A program made the position numbers and the translations under genes. This document shows, in pieces, positions 17,176 through 31,067 of a DNA stretch of 38,577 bases. Numbering within the stretch: the stretch's first letter is position 1; each line of letters opens with the position of its first letter. The notes under the pieces were generated by a model, which saw nothing but the letters and a program-made list of their open reading frames with translations, was not told the origin of the DNA and did not search any database. Origin of the DNA: Vreelandella subglaciescola (GTDB lineage: Bacteria; Pseudomonadota; Gammaproteobacteria; Pseudomonadales; Halomonadaceae); contig JAKDRW010000015.1 of assembly GCA_030454225.1 (NCBI GenBank), positions 1 through 38,577 of the forward strand, written 5' to 3'.

Positions 17176-17853
17176 TTACTCCCCTCCTTTTGGGGTCAGA
17201 ATCAAAAGCTGCCGTTCGGCGGTGGCAAAAGGCACCTCGAGCCGGTGGCGCTGCGCGAGCACGACGCTGGCCGGCAACGCCTCAAGCTCGTCGTCGGCGC
17301 CAGGGCCTTTCATCGCCAGCCAGCGCCCGCCGAGGGCCGGCAGTTGGCGCGTCAGGCTAATAAAATCGGCCAGGCTTGCGAAGGCGCGCGAGATCACCTG
17401 GTCAAAACCGCCGGCTTCGAACGACTCGACGCGAACTTGCTCTGCGGCGACGTTATCGAGTCCCAGCTCCATTATTGCCTGGCGTTGAAAGCGTACTTTT
17501 TTGCCGTTGCTGTCGAGCAACGTGACCTTGAGGTCGGGTATTAAAATTGCCAGCACCAGCCCCGGAAACCCGGGGCCGGCGCCCACGTCAAGCAGCGTTG
17601 TCGGGCGGATAAAAGGCACCACCGCGGCGCTGTCGAGCACGTGGCGAGAGACCATTTCTTTGATATCGCGCACCGCGGTGAGGTTATAAGCCCGGTTCCA
17701 CTTGTGCAACAGGGCCACCAGTCCCAGCAGCCGGCGGCGCTGCTCGTTATTGGCGGCAATGCCCAGAGCCTCAAGGCCGTCGTCGAGTCGCGAAGCGATA
17801 CCGTCGGGCAGCGTTTTGATCAGCGCCGCGGCGGCGTGCGTCAGGGTGCTCAT
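17176..17853 (-). CDS. rsmG: 16S rRNA (guanine(527)-N(7))-methyltransferase
   Basis: RsmG (GidB) methylates N7 of G527 in 16S rRNA using S-adenosylmethionine. The protein is 225 aa (E. coli 207), slightly long at the N-terminus. The AdoMet motif I is [17 protein letters not shown] (residues 87-103), preceded by [11 protein letters not shown] and HVLDSA, and followed by [14 protein letters not shown] and [12 protein letters not shown]. Its ATG overlaps the mnmG TGA by four bases (ATGA), the usual coupling of gidA and gidB. Confidence 0.98.
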
Positions 17854-19754
17854 CCGTTGGCCACCTCGGCCTGGTTGAGCAGGCGATGTTTTTTCAGGTG
17901 AATTAACAGGATCGATACCGCCGCAGGGGTCACGCCGGGAATCCGCGCGGCCTGGGCAAGCGTTGCCGGGCGGACGTCGCCGAGTTTTTGCCGCGTTTCG
18001 TTGGAAAGCCCGTCAATCTCGCTGTAATCAAGGCTATGCGGCAGCGGAGTGGCTTCGTGGCGCTTGAGCTTGTTGATCTCGTCTTGCTGACGGTCGATAT
18101 AGCCCTGGTATTTGGCCTGTATCTGCACCTGCTCGGCGACGGTGTCATTACTTACCGGCTGACCGTCGATGCCGGGCAGCGCGGCGATATCGGCGTAGCC
18201 AAGTTCGGGCCGCTTGAGCAGATCGTGCAGGGTAAATTCGCGTGCCAGCGGCTTGCCCAGCGTTTTGGCAAGGCTCTCACCGGCGGGCGATTTGGGCTGT
18301 ACCCAGGTGCTCGCCAAGCGCTGGTTTTCTTCTTCAATCGCCTCCCGCTTGGCGCTAAAGGCCTGCCAACGAACATCGTCGACCAGACCCAGCGAACGGC
18401 CGATTTCGGTTAAGCGTAAATCGGCGTTGTCTTCGCGCAGCAGCAGGCGGTATTCCGCCCGCGAGGTGAACATGCGGTAGGGCTCTTTGGTGCCCATGGT
18501 GATCAGGTCGTCCACCAACACGCCCAAATACGCCTCATCGCGGCGCGGCCACCAGGCCTCAAGCCCCGACGCACGGCGGGCGGCGTTGAGGCCGGCCAAT
18601 AGCCCCTGGGCGCCGGCTTCTTCATAGCCGGTAGTGCCGTTGATTTGGCCGGCAAAAAACAGGCTGTGGATAAATTTGGTTTCCAGCGAGTGTTTCAAAT
18701 CGCGCGGATCAAAAAAATCGTACTCGATGGCGTAGCCCGGTCGGGTGATATGGGCATTTTCCAGTCCGTTGATGGAGCGCACCAGTTCAAGCTGAATGTC
18801 AAACGGTAGCGAGGTGGAAATACCGTTGGGGTAAAGCTCGTGGGTATCGAGCCCTTCGGGTTCGATAAAAATCTGGTGGCTATCTTTATCGGCGAAGCGG
18901 CTTACCTTGTCTTCGATCGACGGACAGTAGCGCGGGCCAACGCCTTCGATATCGCCTGAATACATCGGCGAGCGATCCAGATTGGCACGAATAATATCGT
19001 GGGTGCGCGCGTTGGTGTGGGCAATGTGGCAGCTCATCTGGCGCGGGTGCATCTCGCGGTTGCCCAGATACGACATCGCTGGCGTCGGCGTATCGCCTGG
19101 CTGCTCGTCAAGCCTGGAGAAATCCACCGTGCGTGCATCGATGCGCGGCGGGGTGCCGGTTTTTAACCGGTCGACGCGAAACGGCAGCGCCCGCAGGCGA
19201 TCAGCCAGCGCGTTGGAAGGCGCATCACCGGCGCGGCCGCCGTGGCTTTTATCCAACCCGATGTGGATAACACCGCCCAAAAACGTGCCGGTACACAGCA
19301 CCACGGTAGCGCTGTGAAAATGAATACCGGTTTCGGTGACGACGCCGCGCACGGTGTCGTTATCCACAATCAGATCGCCGGCGGCCTGCTGAAAAATGGT
19401 CAGGTTCTGCTGGTTTTCCAGGGTGGTGCGAATGGCGGCCTTGTAACGAATGCGGTCGGCCTGCGCCCGGGTGGCGCGAACGGCGGGGCCTTTGCGAGCG
19501 TTGAGTACACGAAACTGGATGCCGCCCTTATCCGTTGCCAGCCCCATGGCGCCGCCCAGGGCATCGATTTCCTTGACCAAATGGCTCTTGCCAATGCCGC
19601 CAATGGCGGGATTACACGACATTTGTCCCAGGGTTTCGATGTTATGGGTCAGCAACAGGGTTTGACAGCCCATACGAGCGGAGGCCAATGCGGCTTCGGT
19701 TCCCGCATGGCCACCGCCGATGACAATCACGTCAAAGCGGTCGGGATAATTCAA
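17850..19754 (-). CDS. mnmG: tRNA uridine-5-carboxymethylaminomethyl modification enzyme MnmG (GidA)
   Basis: MnmG, with MnmE, installs the cmnm5 group on U34 of several tRNAs using FAD, NADH and methylene-THF. I place the start at TTG 19754, giving (M)[17 protein letters not shown] and 634 aa (E. coli 629). GAGG lies 6 bases upstream. An in-frame codon 36 residues further up exists, but that stretch is not family-like. The FAD Rossmann motif [13 protein letters not shown] is near residue 13. Other landmarks are [42 protein letters not shown] and [18 protein letters not shown]. mnmE is not adjacent. The gene borders the oriC candidate, and three perfect DnaA boxes occur inside its coding sequence. 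Confidence 0.97.
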
Positions 19755-19823
19755 AGGACACCTCGTCTTGTGCGTTTGGCACCGATGTGAAAAGCGCAGC
19801 AGCGCTCGAATGCTTGGCCGGGG

Positions 19824-19852
19824 AGTATAAACCTCCTGTGGGTAACCGTCAG
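19824..19852 (-). promoter_or_regulatory. Predicted mnmG promoter with DnaA-box-like spacer
   Basis: On the minus strand CTGACG (19852-19847) and TATACT (19829-19824) are spaced 17 bases, giving a start near 19817 and a leader of about 63 bases. A near-match DnaA box (TTACCCACA, one mismatch) lies in the spacer at 19837-19845. A consensus box abuts the -35 at 19855-19863. Confidence 0.65.
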
Positions 19853-19854
19853 GT

Positions 19855-19863
19855 TTTTCCACA
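19855..19863 (+). promoter_or_regulatory. DnaA box TTTTCCACA
   Basis: Matches TTWTNCACA exactly. It lies three bases upstream of the inferred mnmG -35 element. Confidence 0.7.
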
Positions 19864-19956
19864 CCGGTTTTGCATCAGCAGTGCCTTTTAATAACTACAT
19901 ATGTATTAAATAAAAGAAGTTCTGTTGTTGTTGTAATTACTGGTGTGGGCAGTTTC

Positions 19957-19965
19957 TGTGCATAA
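19957..19965 (-). promoter_or_regulatory. DnaA box TTATGCACA
   Basis: Exact match to TTATNCACA on the minus strand, just right of the AT-rich part and 9 bases from the 13-mer-like element. Confidence 0.7.
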
Positions 19966-19974
19966 ACCAATTTT

Positions 19975-19987
19975 GATCTTTATTATC
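19975..19987 (+). other. 13-mer-like unwinding element
   Basis: GATCTTTATTATC agrees with the E. coli oriC 13-mer GATCTNTTNTTTT at 10 of 13 positions and lies in the AT-rich segment. It is a candidate DNA-unwinding element. Confidence 0.5.
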
Positions 19988-19996
19988 AATACGTTG
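19984..19996 (+). promoter_or_regulatory. IHF binding-site consensus
   Basis: TATCAATACGTTG fits WATCAANNNNTTR at every fixed position. IHF bends E. coli oriC between the AT-rich region and the DnaA boxes, and this site has the equivalent placement. Confidence 0.6.
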
Positions 19997-20055
19997 TAGC
20001 GTTAATAATTACGCTTGAATGCTGCTGGGAAAGGGTTTGCAAGCGCTGGACGGCT

Positions 20056-20064
20056 TGTGCATAA
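20056..20064 (-). promoter_or_regulatory. DnaA box TTATGCACA
   Basis: Exact match to TTATNCACA on the minus strand. A near-match TTATCCACC follows 9 bases away on the plus strand at 20074-20082. Confidence 0.7.
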
Positions 20065-20225
20065 GAGGGGTAGTTATCCACCGGCGCAGATACGGACAGC
20101 TTCTCCACCGCGCTATACCGGCTTTATCACCGCGGCTGTGAACAACCCAGACGAATTCGGCTGGCCTACGGCTAAGCGCCGTATGACAGGCGGGGTGGAC
20201 TGAACGCAGGAAAATAAAAAATATA

Positions 20226-20234
20226 TTATCCACA
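20226..20234 (+). promoter_or_regulatory. DnaA box TTATCCACA
   Basis: Perfect strong-class DnaA box, directly preceded by a short A/T run (20211-20227). Confidence 0.75.
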
Positions 20235-20337
20235 GGCAAAAAACGCCCGTAAAGCGAGATTCTAAAGAAAAAAAGGACCGATAAGCCGTGTTTGTACCCC
20301 GGTGAGGGGCGGTTTCTTGAGAGGATCCGGGGGAGAA

Positions 20338-20346
20338 TTTTGCACA
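20338..20346 (+). promoter_or_regulatory. DnaA box TTTTGCACA
   Basis: Matches TTWTNCACA exactly. It is the box closest to the SDR gene, about 100 bp before its ATG. Confidence 0.6.
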
Positions 20347-20449
20347 GGGCTTGGATAAGGTCTTTGAGAGAGTCTTGAAGAGGGGCTTGAGAGAAAGAGA
20401 CCGGCAGGGGTAATCTGAAACGTCGTCTGTCACTCAACGGGAGCTCAGT

Positions 20450-21139
20450 ATGGATGATCGCGTATTGCTGATTACCGGCGCCTCCAGCGGTATTGGCGCT
20501 GCCACCGCCCGGGCCGCCGCCGAGAAAGGCTACAAACTGGTATTGGCGGCGCGCCGTCACGATAAGCTCGAAGCGCTTGCCGAGGAGATCGGTAAAGACC
20601 GGATGGTCACCGTAAGCTGCGACGTCACGTCGATGCAGGACCAGCAGGCTATGGTCGAACAGGCGCTGGAGCGCTTTGGTCGCCTGGATGCGGTGTTTGC
20701 CAACGCCGGGCGCGGCGGGTCACCCGGCGGCTTCAGCGAGGCGGATCACGAACAGTGGAAGGATATGCTGCTGACCAACGTCTACGGCGTCGGCCTGACG
20801 CTACAGGCGACGCTGCCCGCGCTCAAACAAAGCCAGGGTCACGTGCTGCTGACCGGTTCTGCTGCCGGGCGTGCCACGATTCCCGGCTCCATGTACAGCG
20901 CGAGCAAATGGGCGGTGACGGGCATTGGCTACAACCTGCGGGAAGAGCTGCGCGGTACGGGGATTCGCGTCACCCTGATCGAGCCCGGCATGGTGGATAC
21001 GGCCTTTTTTGACGAGCGCCCCACCCATGCCATGCAGGACGAGGATATCGCCAACGCGGTGCTCTACGCTCTCGACCAGCCCGCCCATGTGGACGTTAAT
21101 GAAATCCTTATCCGTCCGACGCCCAGCGTCAGTGCTTGA
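20450..21139 (+). CDS. Short-chain dehydrogenase/reductase (classical SDR, YdfG-like)
   Basis: This is an NAD(P)-dependent oxidoreductase of 229 aa with all classical SDR motifs: the cofactor loop TGASSGIG (9-16), NAG (85-87), Asn110, Ser137 and the catalytic YSASK (Tyr149, Lys153). The basic residues AARR at 33-36, after the second strand, favour NADPH. The C-terminus [11 protein letters not shown] is typical of the YdfG-like group that oxidises 3-hydroxy acids or serine analogues, but the substrate cannot be fixed from sequence. GGGAG precedes the ATG. It lies directly right of the oriC candidate, and its last 11 bases overlap the end of the convergent ABC ATPase gene. Confidence 0.9.
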
Positions 21140-21887
21140 GCACGCGAGACAGAAAGGCCTGGGTACGCTCGTGTTGGGGGGCATCAAACAGCTGCTCGGG
21201 CGGACCCTGTTCGGTAATTTCGCCCTGGTGGATGTAAATCACGCGGTCGGCGACTTCGCGGGCAAAGTGCATTTCATGGGTGACGATGACCATGGTCATG
21301 CCCTCCTTGGCGAGCTCGCGCATGGCGTCGAGCACTTCGCCGATCATCTCCGGATCGAGCGCCGAGGTGGGCTCGTCAAACAGCATTAGCCGCGGTTCCA
21401 TGGCCAGCGCCCGGGCAAGCGCTACGCGCTGCTGCTGGCCGCCGGAGAGCTGTGCGGGGTACTTGTCCGCCTGATCCTCGATGCCCACGCGCTCGAGTAG
21501 CCGATCGGCGGTTTGGCGGGCCTGCTGGCGGTTAGCACCGCGAACTTTAATCGGTGCCAGAGTCACGTTGTCGCGCACGCTGAGATGGGGAAACAGGTTG
21601 AACTGCTGGAACACCATGCCGACTTCGGTACGGATCTGCTGCAAGGCCCGGCCGCTTCTGCCGTACGGCTGCAGGGTCTTGCCATCGACGCCGAGGATGC
21701 CTTGCTGAAACTCTTCGAGGCCGTTGATACAGCGGATCAGCGTGGATTTCCCCGAGCCGCTGGCACCGATTACCACCACGACTTCTCCCGGCGTAATGGC
21801 AAGGTCGATATCCTTCAGCACGTGCAGGCTGCCAAAGTGTTTGTTGAGCTTTTTCATGCTCACAATGGGTTGTGTTGTTGCGTTCAT
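21129..21887 (-). CDS. Polar amino acid ABC transporter, ATP-binding protein (GlnQ-like)
   Basis: This is the ATPase of a polar amino acid importer, 252 aa. Walker A is GASGSGKST, the Q-loop is [13 protein letters not shown], the signature [19 protein letters not shown] and the Walker B is [27 protein letters not shown] carries the switch His. The sequence is close to the GlnQ/HisP/GltL group. It is the last gene of a three-gene operon (binding protein, permease, ATPase), 9 bp after the permease. The 3' end overlaps the convergent SDR gene by 11 bases. Confidence 0.95.
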
Positions 21888-27598: not shown

Positions 27599-28422
27599 TG
27601 CTGCCGCCGCTTCCCCCCGTGGTTTTGGTACTCGCCGGGCATGACCCTACCGGCGGTGCGGGCATCATCGCTGATAGCGAGGCCATCGCCGCCAACGGCG
27701 GCTGGGCGATGACGATTCCCACCGCGCTGACTGTGCAAAACTGCCATGACGTCAGCCGCGTGATACCTGCCGATCCCGGGGTCATGCTGGCCAGCGCCGA
27801 GGCGCTTTTTGATATGCCGGTGGCCGCGATCAAGATCGGGCTGCTGGCAGACGCCCCGACGCTGATCGCCGCCGAACGCATTGTGCGGCGTTTTCCCGGC
27901 GTGCCGGTAGTGATCGATCCGGTGCTCAAGGCCGGCGGCGGCGCTGAGTTATCCACACCCGAGCTGTGCCGGCTGTTTGTGGATAAAATACTCGCGCACG
28001 GCGATATCCTGACGCCCAACCGCTATGAGCTGGCCCAGCTGACCCCCGAACTTGCTGACGCCGACGATACCCAGCGCGCCGTCGAGCTGATTTCCCAGGG
28101 CAGCCAGGGCGTACTGGTGACCGGCACCGATGACCCGCTTCCCCAAAGCGACGCGCAGACGGTAACGCATACTCTGCACACCCCCGAAAGCGCCCGCCAG
28201 TGGCAGTGGCCACGCCTGCCCGGCACCTATCACGGCTCGGGCTGTACGCTGGCGGCAGCGCTTGCCGCCCGTCTGGCCGCCGGTGAGGCGCTGCCTACGG
28301 CCTGCGAGCAGGCGCAGCACTTTACCTGGCAAAGCCTGTCGCACGGCTATCGGCCGGCGAATGGCCAGTATTTGCCCAACCGCTTTTTCCATGACAGTTA
28401 TGCTTATGCCAAGCAACTTTGA
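27598..28422 (+). CDS. thiD: Hydroxymethylpyrimidine / phosphomethylpyrimidine kinase
   Basis: ThiD phosphorylates HMP and HMP-P in thiamine biosynthesis and salvage. From the ATG at 27598 (overlapping the hemJ stop by one base) it is 274 aa. Ribokinase-fold landmarks are LAGHDPTGGAGIIADSEAI, the family GGAG motif, and the phosphate-binding loop YHGSGCTLAAALAA near residue 215, with the catalytic Cys. As I recall, Pseudomonas carries thiE between thiD and hemL; here hemL follows directly. Two perfect DnaA boxes in inverted orientation lie inside the gene. Confidence 0.93.
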   Translation: MLPPLPPVVLVLAGHDPTGGAGIIADSEAIAANGGWAMTIPTALTVQNCHDVSRVIPADPGVMLASAEALFDMPVAAIKIGLLADAPTLIAAERIVRRFPGVPVVIDPVLKAGGGAELSTPELCRLFVDKILAHGDILTPNRYELAQLTPELADADDTQRAVELISQGSQGVLVTGTDDPLPQSDAQTVTHTLHTPESARQWQWPRLPGTYHGSGCTLAAALAARLAAGEALPTACEQAQHFTWQSLSHGYRPANGQYLPNRFFHDSYAYAKQL

Positions 28423-30080: not shown

Positions 30081-30112
30081 AAAGGCCAGTCGTGCTGTGC
30101 CTGACGGCCTTT
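30081..30112 (-). terminator. Hairpin at the end of the LuxR-type regulator gene
   Basis: AAAGGCC (30081-30087) pairs with GGCCTTT (30106-30112), extended by GTC/GAC across a one-base bulge. It overlaps the regulator's stop codon, and the short T-run is inside the stem. Probably a bidirectional terminator. Confidence 0.55.
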
Positions 30113-30809
30113 ATTCCTCGGGACGCTGCTGCAGATTCCCCACGGTCTCGGCGTTGGGCACTAGCGGCCCTAGGTTCTGGTGTATCCAGTTGAGCGCCTG
30201 AATACGGTTATGCACGTTGATTTTACGAAAGATGTTGTACAGATGGGATTTTACCGTGTGCTCGCTGACAAACAGCTTTTCGGCGATCTGCTGGTTGGAA
30301 GACCCCGCGCTTAATAGCGAGATGATTTCCATTTCCCGGTTGGTTAAGCCGCAGGCCGGGCGAAAAGCGTTGCTCTGGTATTTGCGGTAGAACAAAATCA
30401 GCCGTGCCATCAGGTCTCGCGACATCCACAGGTCGCCGCCGAGCAGGGTGTGGATACCTTTACAGATCACCTCGAGACTTTCATTGCGATAGAAAATACC
30501 CTTCAGCTGCGTGCAGGTCAGCGTTTTCAATGCGTGATCCAGATCGGTTACGTTCAGCGCTGCCACGGGGGCCTTGGCGAGCGGTTCGGGCAGAGCTTCT
30601 TGCCAGGCGGAAAGCTTATCGATGGCCATATGATCGCTGTCGATCAGCAGCAGGGCGCGATCGTCCGCCGTCGCCTTGACGGTTTCGGCAGGCGATTGAA
30701 CGCGGATATTACAGCCGGTATGCTCGCTCAGATAATCAGCAAATAACTGAGTTTGCGGACTTTTTTCGGTGATGAGGTAAACGATATCGGTACTTTTATC
30801 CTGCGCCAT
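30111..30809 (-). CDS. LuxR/CsgD-family transcriptional regulator
   Basis: The 232 aa protein has a divergent receiver-like N-terminal domain (about 8-125, with LLLIDSDHM where a phospho-acceptor Asp might be) and a C-terminal LuxR helix-turn-helix at 155-213. The HTH contains LTNREMEIISLLSAGSSNQQ, IAEKLFVSEHTVKSHLYNIF and RKINVHNRIQALNW. The HTH and length are strongly reminiscent of CsgD, the curli/cellulose biofilm activator, but no csg or bcs genes are in the window. AGGA before ATG 30809 favours this start over the ATG five codons earlier. The 240 bp upstream region is extremely AT-rich, suggesting complex upstream control. Confidence 0.88.
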   Translation of the reverse strand: MAQDKSTDIVYLITEKSPQTQLFADYLSEHTGCNIRVQSPAETVKATADDRALLLIDSDHMAIDKLSAWQEALPEPLAKAPVAALNVTDLDHALKTLTCTQLKGIFYRNESLEVICKGIHTLLGGDLWMSRDLMARLILFYRKYQSNAFRPACGLTNREMEIISLLSAGSSNQQIAEKLFVSEHTVKSHLYNIFRKINVHNRIQALNWIHQNLGPLVPNAETVGNLQQRPEE

Positions 30810-30824
30810 GGAGATGATCCTCAT

Positions 30825-31067
30825 GCAGAGAAAGAGTGAGAAGGCCTCAGAAGAGTGTTGTATATTATTTGTTTTTTGTAAAATAAAGTGAAAAGTTAAT
30901 TTATGGTAGTACTGATGACTTTATAAATATTTGTTTTATATGTATTTAGATATATTTAACGTTATTTTTTCAAGTTAATTTAAATAGCACTATCGCTTAA
31001 GCCAAGCCGCCACTTTTGGCGGTTCAGCGCCCGGCGTACACTGACCGGCTGACCAGGAGAATTCTAT
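30825..31067. promoter_or_regulatory. AT-rich divergent regulatory region between CsgD-like gene and rdgB
   Basis: The part at about 30855-31000 is nearly all A/T with many TATTT/TTTAAA-type tracts, in sharp contrast to the GC-rich surroundings. It could bind H-NS/MvaT-like proteins or IHF. A small hairpin (CCGCCA-CTTT-TGGCGG) follows near 31010, and AGGAG precedes the rdgB ATG. I could not choose a single promoter among many AT-rich options. Confidence 0.6.

Follow-up and report, generated by a model that had tools for sequence, protein, structure and literature searches.

A DnaA-box array upstream of mnmG as the probable chromosomal origin of replication in a Halomonas-type gammaproteobacterium

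The region between mnmG (gidA) and the gene of an SDR-family oxidoreductase in a Halomonas-type bacterium raises the question of whether replication of the chromosome starts there. It lies in a 38.6-kb stretch of DNA (the whole stretch that was analyzed, hereafter the window), which is contig C65 of a 1.88-Mb assembly in 85 contigs that is 72% complete. When named genomes were searched with the MnmG protein of the window, the top matches came from Halomonas, with 85% identity in the best segment. The original prediction had proposed region 19755–20449 as the chromosomal origin, and this proposal gained support from the strand asymmetry of relatives, the architecture of the site, and the conservation of its DnaA boxes. 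We consider it very probable that the segment from about 19830 to 20240 is the chromosomal oriC of this gammaproteobacterium and that it is of the mnmG-adjacent type. This assignment is based on the sites themselves, on their conservation and spacing across the genus, and on the turnover of asymmetry in relatives.

The left border is formed by mnmG (17850–19754, minus strand; NCBIfam TIGR00136, 914 bits), and the array stands directly upstream of this gene, which is the position expected of a mnmG-adjacent oriC. NCBIfam models identified mnmG, rsmG, genes for ParA-type and ParB-type proteins, atpB, and the SDR gene in the window. On a hand-picked list of 27 genes, 12 of the 13 genes left of the site, mnmG counted, were on the minus strand, which bears out the predicted gene polarity, and 8 of the 14 genes on the right were on the plus strand. 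The SDR gene (20450–21139, plus strand; identified with NCBIfam) does adjoin the array in the window, as predicted, but it is a lineage-specific right neighbor rather than a general feature, since among 10 aligned relatives only the genome G009 has it at this place. The remaining nine have, next to the array, the 3′ end of a gene on the minus strand. Judging by eye, we take this gene to be the GlnQ-type gene found at 21129–21887 in the window, where the SDR gene sits between it and the origin. The SDR gene is probably a local insertion. In several relatives its start has a match at another genomic place, where a paralogue may be present.

All five exact TTWTNCACA boxes that had been claimed for 19755–20449 were found in their places, starting at 19855(+), 19957(−), 20056(−), 20226(+), and 20338(+), and the one at 20226 is the sole perfect E. 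coli-type box among them. Near matches also occur as claimed, though there are four rather than three at one mismatch, i.e., 19786(−), 19837(−), 20074(+), and 20137(−). Dinucleotide shuffles contained on average 0.064 exact boxes and at most 2, and none of 5000 reached five, which ruled out chance clustering. When the window was scanned in steps of 50, the same 695 bp proved to be the densest for boxes, with 5 exact ones and 9 at no more than one mismatch, while the whole assembly contains 103 copies of TTWTNCACA vs. 32 of the pattern read backwards. Exact TTATCCACA boxes are found at other places too. Three of them lie inside mnmG (18665, 19262, and 19360) at offsets that are the same in relatives, which conserved codons alone could perhaps explain, and an inverted pair with starts 29 bp apart is located at 27949–27986. 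Two other contigs of this assembly carry similar pairs (C45:50318/50346 and C46:7902/7952), and these inverted pairs are possible DnaA-regulated or titration sites.

A DNA search with positions 19600–20600 of the window as the query returned matches in 33 of 38 genomes, the organism's own counted. All 24 other genomes of the genus matched, with matches extending past mnmG. Of 13 further genomes from the order, 8 matched, with a leftmost match that covered little more than the end of mnmG. The window and the 24 other genus genomes gave 25 genus sites, at which eight of ten tested box positions were conserved, while 20 control combinations of offset and strand gave at most 2/25 at two mismatches. 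From left to right, box TTACCCACA at 19837–19845 (−) is within one mismatch of TTATCCACA in 24/25 sites, and TTTTCCACA at 19855–19863 (+) is TTTTCCACA in 25/25. The weak position 19944–19952 (−), scored at row 19942 with a tolerance of 3, reads CTGCCCACA here and TTGTCCACA in 17/25 sites (at most one mismatch in 23/25, at most two in 24/25). The R1-like box TTATGCACA at 19957–19965 (−) is retained with at most one mismatch in 23/25 sites and at most two in 25/25. The same TTATGCACA occurs at 20056–20064 (−), where 16/25 sites have TCATCCACA (at most one mismatch in 19/25, at most two in 25/25), and it is followed by TTATCCACC at 20074–20082 (+), 117 bp from R1 (at most one mismatch in 22/25), and by the weak box TTGTTCACA at 20137–20145 (−), which is found in 19/25 sites at two mismatches or fewer and in 0/25 at one or fewer. 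Box TTATCCACA at 20226–20234 (+), present in 25/25 sites with at most one mismatch, forms the right end of the conserved array. The position 20105(+) was conserved in 0/25 sites, and the fifth exact box, TTTTGCACA at 20338–20346 (+), is present within two mismatches in 1/25, i.e., it is lineage-specific and probably outside the core.

Thus, the site has the conserved box cluster, beyond chance, that is looked for in a mnmG-type oriC. Exact boxes are fewer elsewhere, which speaks against the assignment: the 24 genus loci have 2 to 5 of them per 700 bp. The cluster is weaker in 8 of the 15 named Halomonadaceae, where the 1000 bp upstream of mnmG contain only one exact box, and the spacing of boxes across these 15 is less regular than in the genus. 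At one mismatch, position 20226 was recovered in 10/15 and 19837 in 9/15 of them, counts that are rough because several loci were anchored on the weak left box. The eight single-box loci are L035, L036, and L038–L043, and the array may have drifted there.

Between mnmG and the R1-like box lies an AT-rich stretch (19886–19945; 23% GC vs. 61% for the window), which by composition alone corresponds to the AT-rich element of a mnmG-type oriC and is a probable DNA unwinding element (DUE); it contains GAAGTTCTGT at 19916. The original prediction also placed a 13-mer-like element (10/13) at this stretch. Such elements are present but weak: the 13-mer consensus is GATCTNTTNTTTT, and the best elements have two mismatches to it, at 19919(+) and 20211(−), followed by one with three at 19975(+). 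The most AT-rich stretch of the window is located elsewhere, at 30831–31020, with GC content down to 16% per 100 bp; it adjoins a LuxR-type regulator gene (30111–30824, minus strand) and has no exact TTWTNCACA inside.

A perfect consensus for IHF had been predicted as well, and WATCAANNNNTTR indeed occurs once in the window, at 19984(+). This site (TATCAATACGTTG, 19984–19996, no mismatches) and the R1-like box have their starts 27 bp apart. The same offset was the best or tied for best at 25/25 genus mnmG sites, with a mean of 1.32 mismatches vs. 3.4 to 7.6 at other offsets, so that IHF stands at a fixed spacing from R1, as in a mnmG-type oriC. A search of 45 of 80 named loci plus E. coli for this R1–IHF pattern, with up to two mismatches and within 300 bp upstream of mnmG, found it in 9/15 Halomonadaceae, 5/7 Vibrio-to-Ferrimonas-type loci, and E. 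coli, in contrast to only 1/13 loci of Pseudomonas. Because the pattern is patchy across the other named loci, we restrict the claim of a common geometry to Halomonas and E. coli. In all six Pseudomonas loci listed, the 1000 bp upstream of mnmG do contain 2–3 exact boxes, and two of the six share the 117-bp minus-to-plus spacing.

The likeness to E. coli oriC (NC_000913, 3925744–3925975) is one of arrangement. It too lies directly upstream of mnmG and has R1 on the minus strand, from which the best IHF-like offset is likewise +27, with two mismatches. R1 and the next exact plus-strand box are 106 bp apart in E. coli, and the corresponding box here lies 117 bp from R1. However, the 45 bp to the left of R1 do not resemble those of E. 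coli (16/45 identical positions vs. a chance mean of 12), so the likeness is in geometry only.

The position of the array upstream of mnmG, together with a conserved AGTATAAA element that the boxes 19837 and 19855 adjoin, would also suit a region that is merely a DnaA-controlled mnmG promoter or a DnaA titration site. We regard this as highly improbable, since the array is nearly 400 bp long, has the origin-like R1–IHF geometry, and coincides with the turnover of skew described below; a mere mnmG promoter was rejected on the extent of the array and on skew.

A more serious competitor to the mnmG site is a second core with the R1–IHF geometry, absent from the original prediction, which is located upstream of dnaA. 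In the organism's own assembly, a cluster of three TTWTNCACA boxes occupies C44:211–430, and in the core as a whole (about C44 140–430) R1 is an exact TTATCCACA, IHF has a perfect site at +27, and there are an AT-rich stretch and additional boxes as well. The R1 box of this core is better than that of the mnmG core. R1 and IHF separated by 18 bp, with no more than two mismatches, were found at only two places in this assembly, C44:211 (dnaA) and C65:19957 (mnmG), both of them perfect. The dnaA gene was detected in 41/41 genus genomes, and of 31 dnaA loci, 24 were readable upstream; the remaining 7 were dropped because the contig begins at dnaA or close to it. The upstream DNA of these 24 loci is AT-rich and as a rule has an R1-like box near −290, then an IHF-like site and more boxes, and +27 was the best or tied IHF offset in 21/24. 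In G016, dnaA appears as two equal partial matches with TGA (C17:526–1233 and C19:700–1407), perhaps due to an assembly break in or near the gene.

With one mismatch allowed, this looser R1–IHF pattern had at least one match in 78/82 genus genomes and, as counted from the list, two matches 16–30 kb apart on one contig in 30/82; some genomes have further matches elsewhere. The two cores are 22–44 kb apart in Halomonas relatives. Over the 45 bp left of R1, 26 positions agree between the two cores of the present genome, whereas the best of 11,649 AT-rich 45-mers used as a control reached 24, and therefore the cores look related from their sequences, through either common descent or a constraint acting on both.

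It might thus be the rpmH–dnaA-side core (C44, about 140–430) that is the working origin, the mnmG array being a silent or historic copy. Besides its complete set of elements, the location of parS favors this reading. Each genome has 3 to 5 parS matches (at most two mismatches), located 3.1–8.2 kb right of dnaA in 10/11 relatives, 8.2–12.1 kb right of it in G009, and 3.2–7.1 kb right of it in contig C44, while the window contains no match at up to three mismatches. The parS sites cluster in the origin region, yet nearer the dnaA core than the mnmG core.

Strand asymmetry can tell the two Halomonas cores apart because 22–44 kb lie between them, and it was analyzed in relatives because the organism's own assembly is in pieces. 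We used eight and later 11 relatives in which mnmG and dnaA are on one contig or flank a contig's numbering start, and regions of 103–160 kb spanning both genes. In all 11, the regional minimum of cumulative GC skew was less than 3 kb away from the start of mnmG, at −1132, −1582, +2805, −150, −1582, −1126, −1231, −1958, −1295, +2340, and −2023 bp relative to start positions that are approximate, and 19.7–45.4 kb from dnaA. The check proposed with the original prediction, for which a minimum on the dnaA side was the contrary outcome, therefore came out in favor of mnmG. The window alone gave its lowest raw cumulative skew near 10–11 kb and a broad strand-corrected optimum at 18 kb.

The strand-corrected fit was made on fourfold-degenerate sites and combined a term for gene strand with a change-point; genes were called crudely as the longest open frames. 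The optimum lay 0 kb from mnmG, with −2 to +2 kb within 6 log units, while a change-point at +22 to +27 kb, the position of dnaA in 10/11 relatives, was 141 to 171 log units worse. Taken singly, 10/11 relatives preferred mnmG over dnaA by 8.0 to 26.0 log units, and the lone exception, G012, preferred dnaA by 4.4; in an earlier fit (eight genomes, 50-kb flanks, no intercept) 8/8 preferred mnmG, G012 by 0.9. The preference of G012 (L158–L164) may reflect a rearrangement of the mnmG–dnaA block. The log-likelihood advantage of mnmG summed to 168.5 over the 11 relatives, a figure that overstates the independent evidence because they share ancestry, and a position bootstrap of 60 replicates placed the change-point at −5 to 0 kb. 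On a chromosome-wide scale, skew was sampled along two complete chromosomes; in G021 it was negative in 12/13 stretches on the left and positive in 13/14 on the right, and in G009, in its own orientation, it was negative in 13/16 stretches below mnmG and positive in 11/12 above. The positive stretches below mnmG in G009 are at −15, −95, and −125 kb; the two farthest from mnmG (C1:1–50000) have wrong-sign skew, as inverted or acquired DNA would.

Strand asymmetry in relatives thus turns over at the site, as at a mnmG-type oriC, and this skew shows that replication has started mainly from the mnmG copy. In P. aeruginosa, the members of the origin pair are sited at dnaA and near gidA. As in Halomonas relatives, that chromosome is reported to have two origin-like regions (Jiang et al. 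2006, via PMC4403523 and PMC4285127), and only one of the two is essential under typical laboratory conditions (Gao 2015, PMC4403523). This precedent and the skew of G012 would fit a working origin at dnaA, but the turn of skew at mnmG (raw regional 11/11, strand-corrected 10/11) makes such an origin very unlikely, and the dnaA-side core was rejected as the main origin on the skew of relatives.

We also described the mnmG–dnaA block as a mixture, on a scale where m = +1 means copied from mnmG and m = −1 copied from dnaA. With m = 0.83 (genome bootstrap 0.58–1.08, position bootstrap 0.14–1.56), the block behaves like the right replichore. The wide interval leaves room for minor use of dnaA, and both cores are conserved, being the sole R1–IHF matches (at most two mismatches) in the organism's own assembly, so that both might be live, with replication able to start at either but mostly at mnmG. 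We hold this to be unlikely, because m is at least 0.87 in 10/11 genomes (G012, −0.41), which is little sign of dnaA use, and because the dnaA-side boxes have an ordinary alternative reading, namely dnaA autoregulation. The proposal overlaps with the preferred one, an origin at mnmG, which allows for minor use of dnaA, and the probabilities given to the readings need not add up to one.

From these features we infer that DnaA and IHF bind, the DNA unwinds, and initiation fires at the mnmG site. DnaA would bind the box array, and IHF would bend the DNA at 19984, so that the DnaA complex on the right is folded over the AT-rich segment 19886–19945. This segment would then open, the helicase would be loaded, and forks would depart both ways. 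The control of initiation probably differs from that in E. coli, whose oriC has 11 GATC motifs in 232 bp vs. 2 in 695 bp here, a number that shows no enrichment over the 3.4 expected from the window rate. SeqA, present in the E. coli control, was found in 0/41 genus genomes, including the organism's own 72%-complete one; of 14 control genomes, E. coli alone was positive. By both GATC and SeqA, the site does not resemble an oriC of the enterobacterial Dam/SeqA-controlled class, and re-initiation is therefore probably limited otherwise than in E. coli; our guesses are Hda-type inactivation or titration of DnaA by the core upstream of dnaA.

The motif GAAGTTCTGT was found at 20/25 mnmG sites, 14/15 named Halomonadaceae loci, and 0/24 dnaA sites. 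In the portion of its description drawn on here, gammaBOriS lists it as the DUE motif of Halomonadaceae oriC (PMC7174414), a likeness that the present site shows at 19916, and leaves the locus, the dnaA-side core, and the IHF spacing unnamed. The same text states that its training origins were picked near the skew minimum, and hence this evidence is not independent of skew. As the family motif lies within the site, gammaBOriS has very probably already placed the family origin here, and the oriC assignment is probably not new; as a mnmG-type oriC it is ordinary in kind. We found no experimental origin mapping in Halomonas or Halomonadaceae in the open-licence literature.

What raises the finding slightly above the ordinary is the second, similar core at dnaA. 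Rather doubtful, though worth stating, is the idea that Halomonas keeps two related, conserved cores 22–44 kb apart and uses both, mnmG as the main start and dnaA as a conditional start or a DnaA-sensing partner; with both cores in use, Halomonas would offer a natural case of a bacterial chromosome with two origins. For the genus, which is used in biotechnology, the analysis places the origin at mnmG and not at dnaA, near which the numbering of ten relatives begins. The gap of 22–44 kb makes Halomonas suited to asking which origin-like region of a gammaproteobacterium works, a question that is hard to settle by skew where the copies lie closer together.
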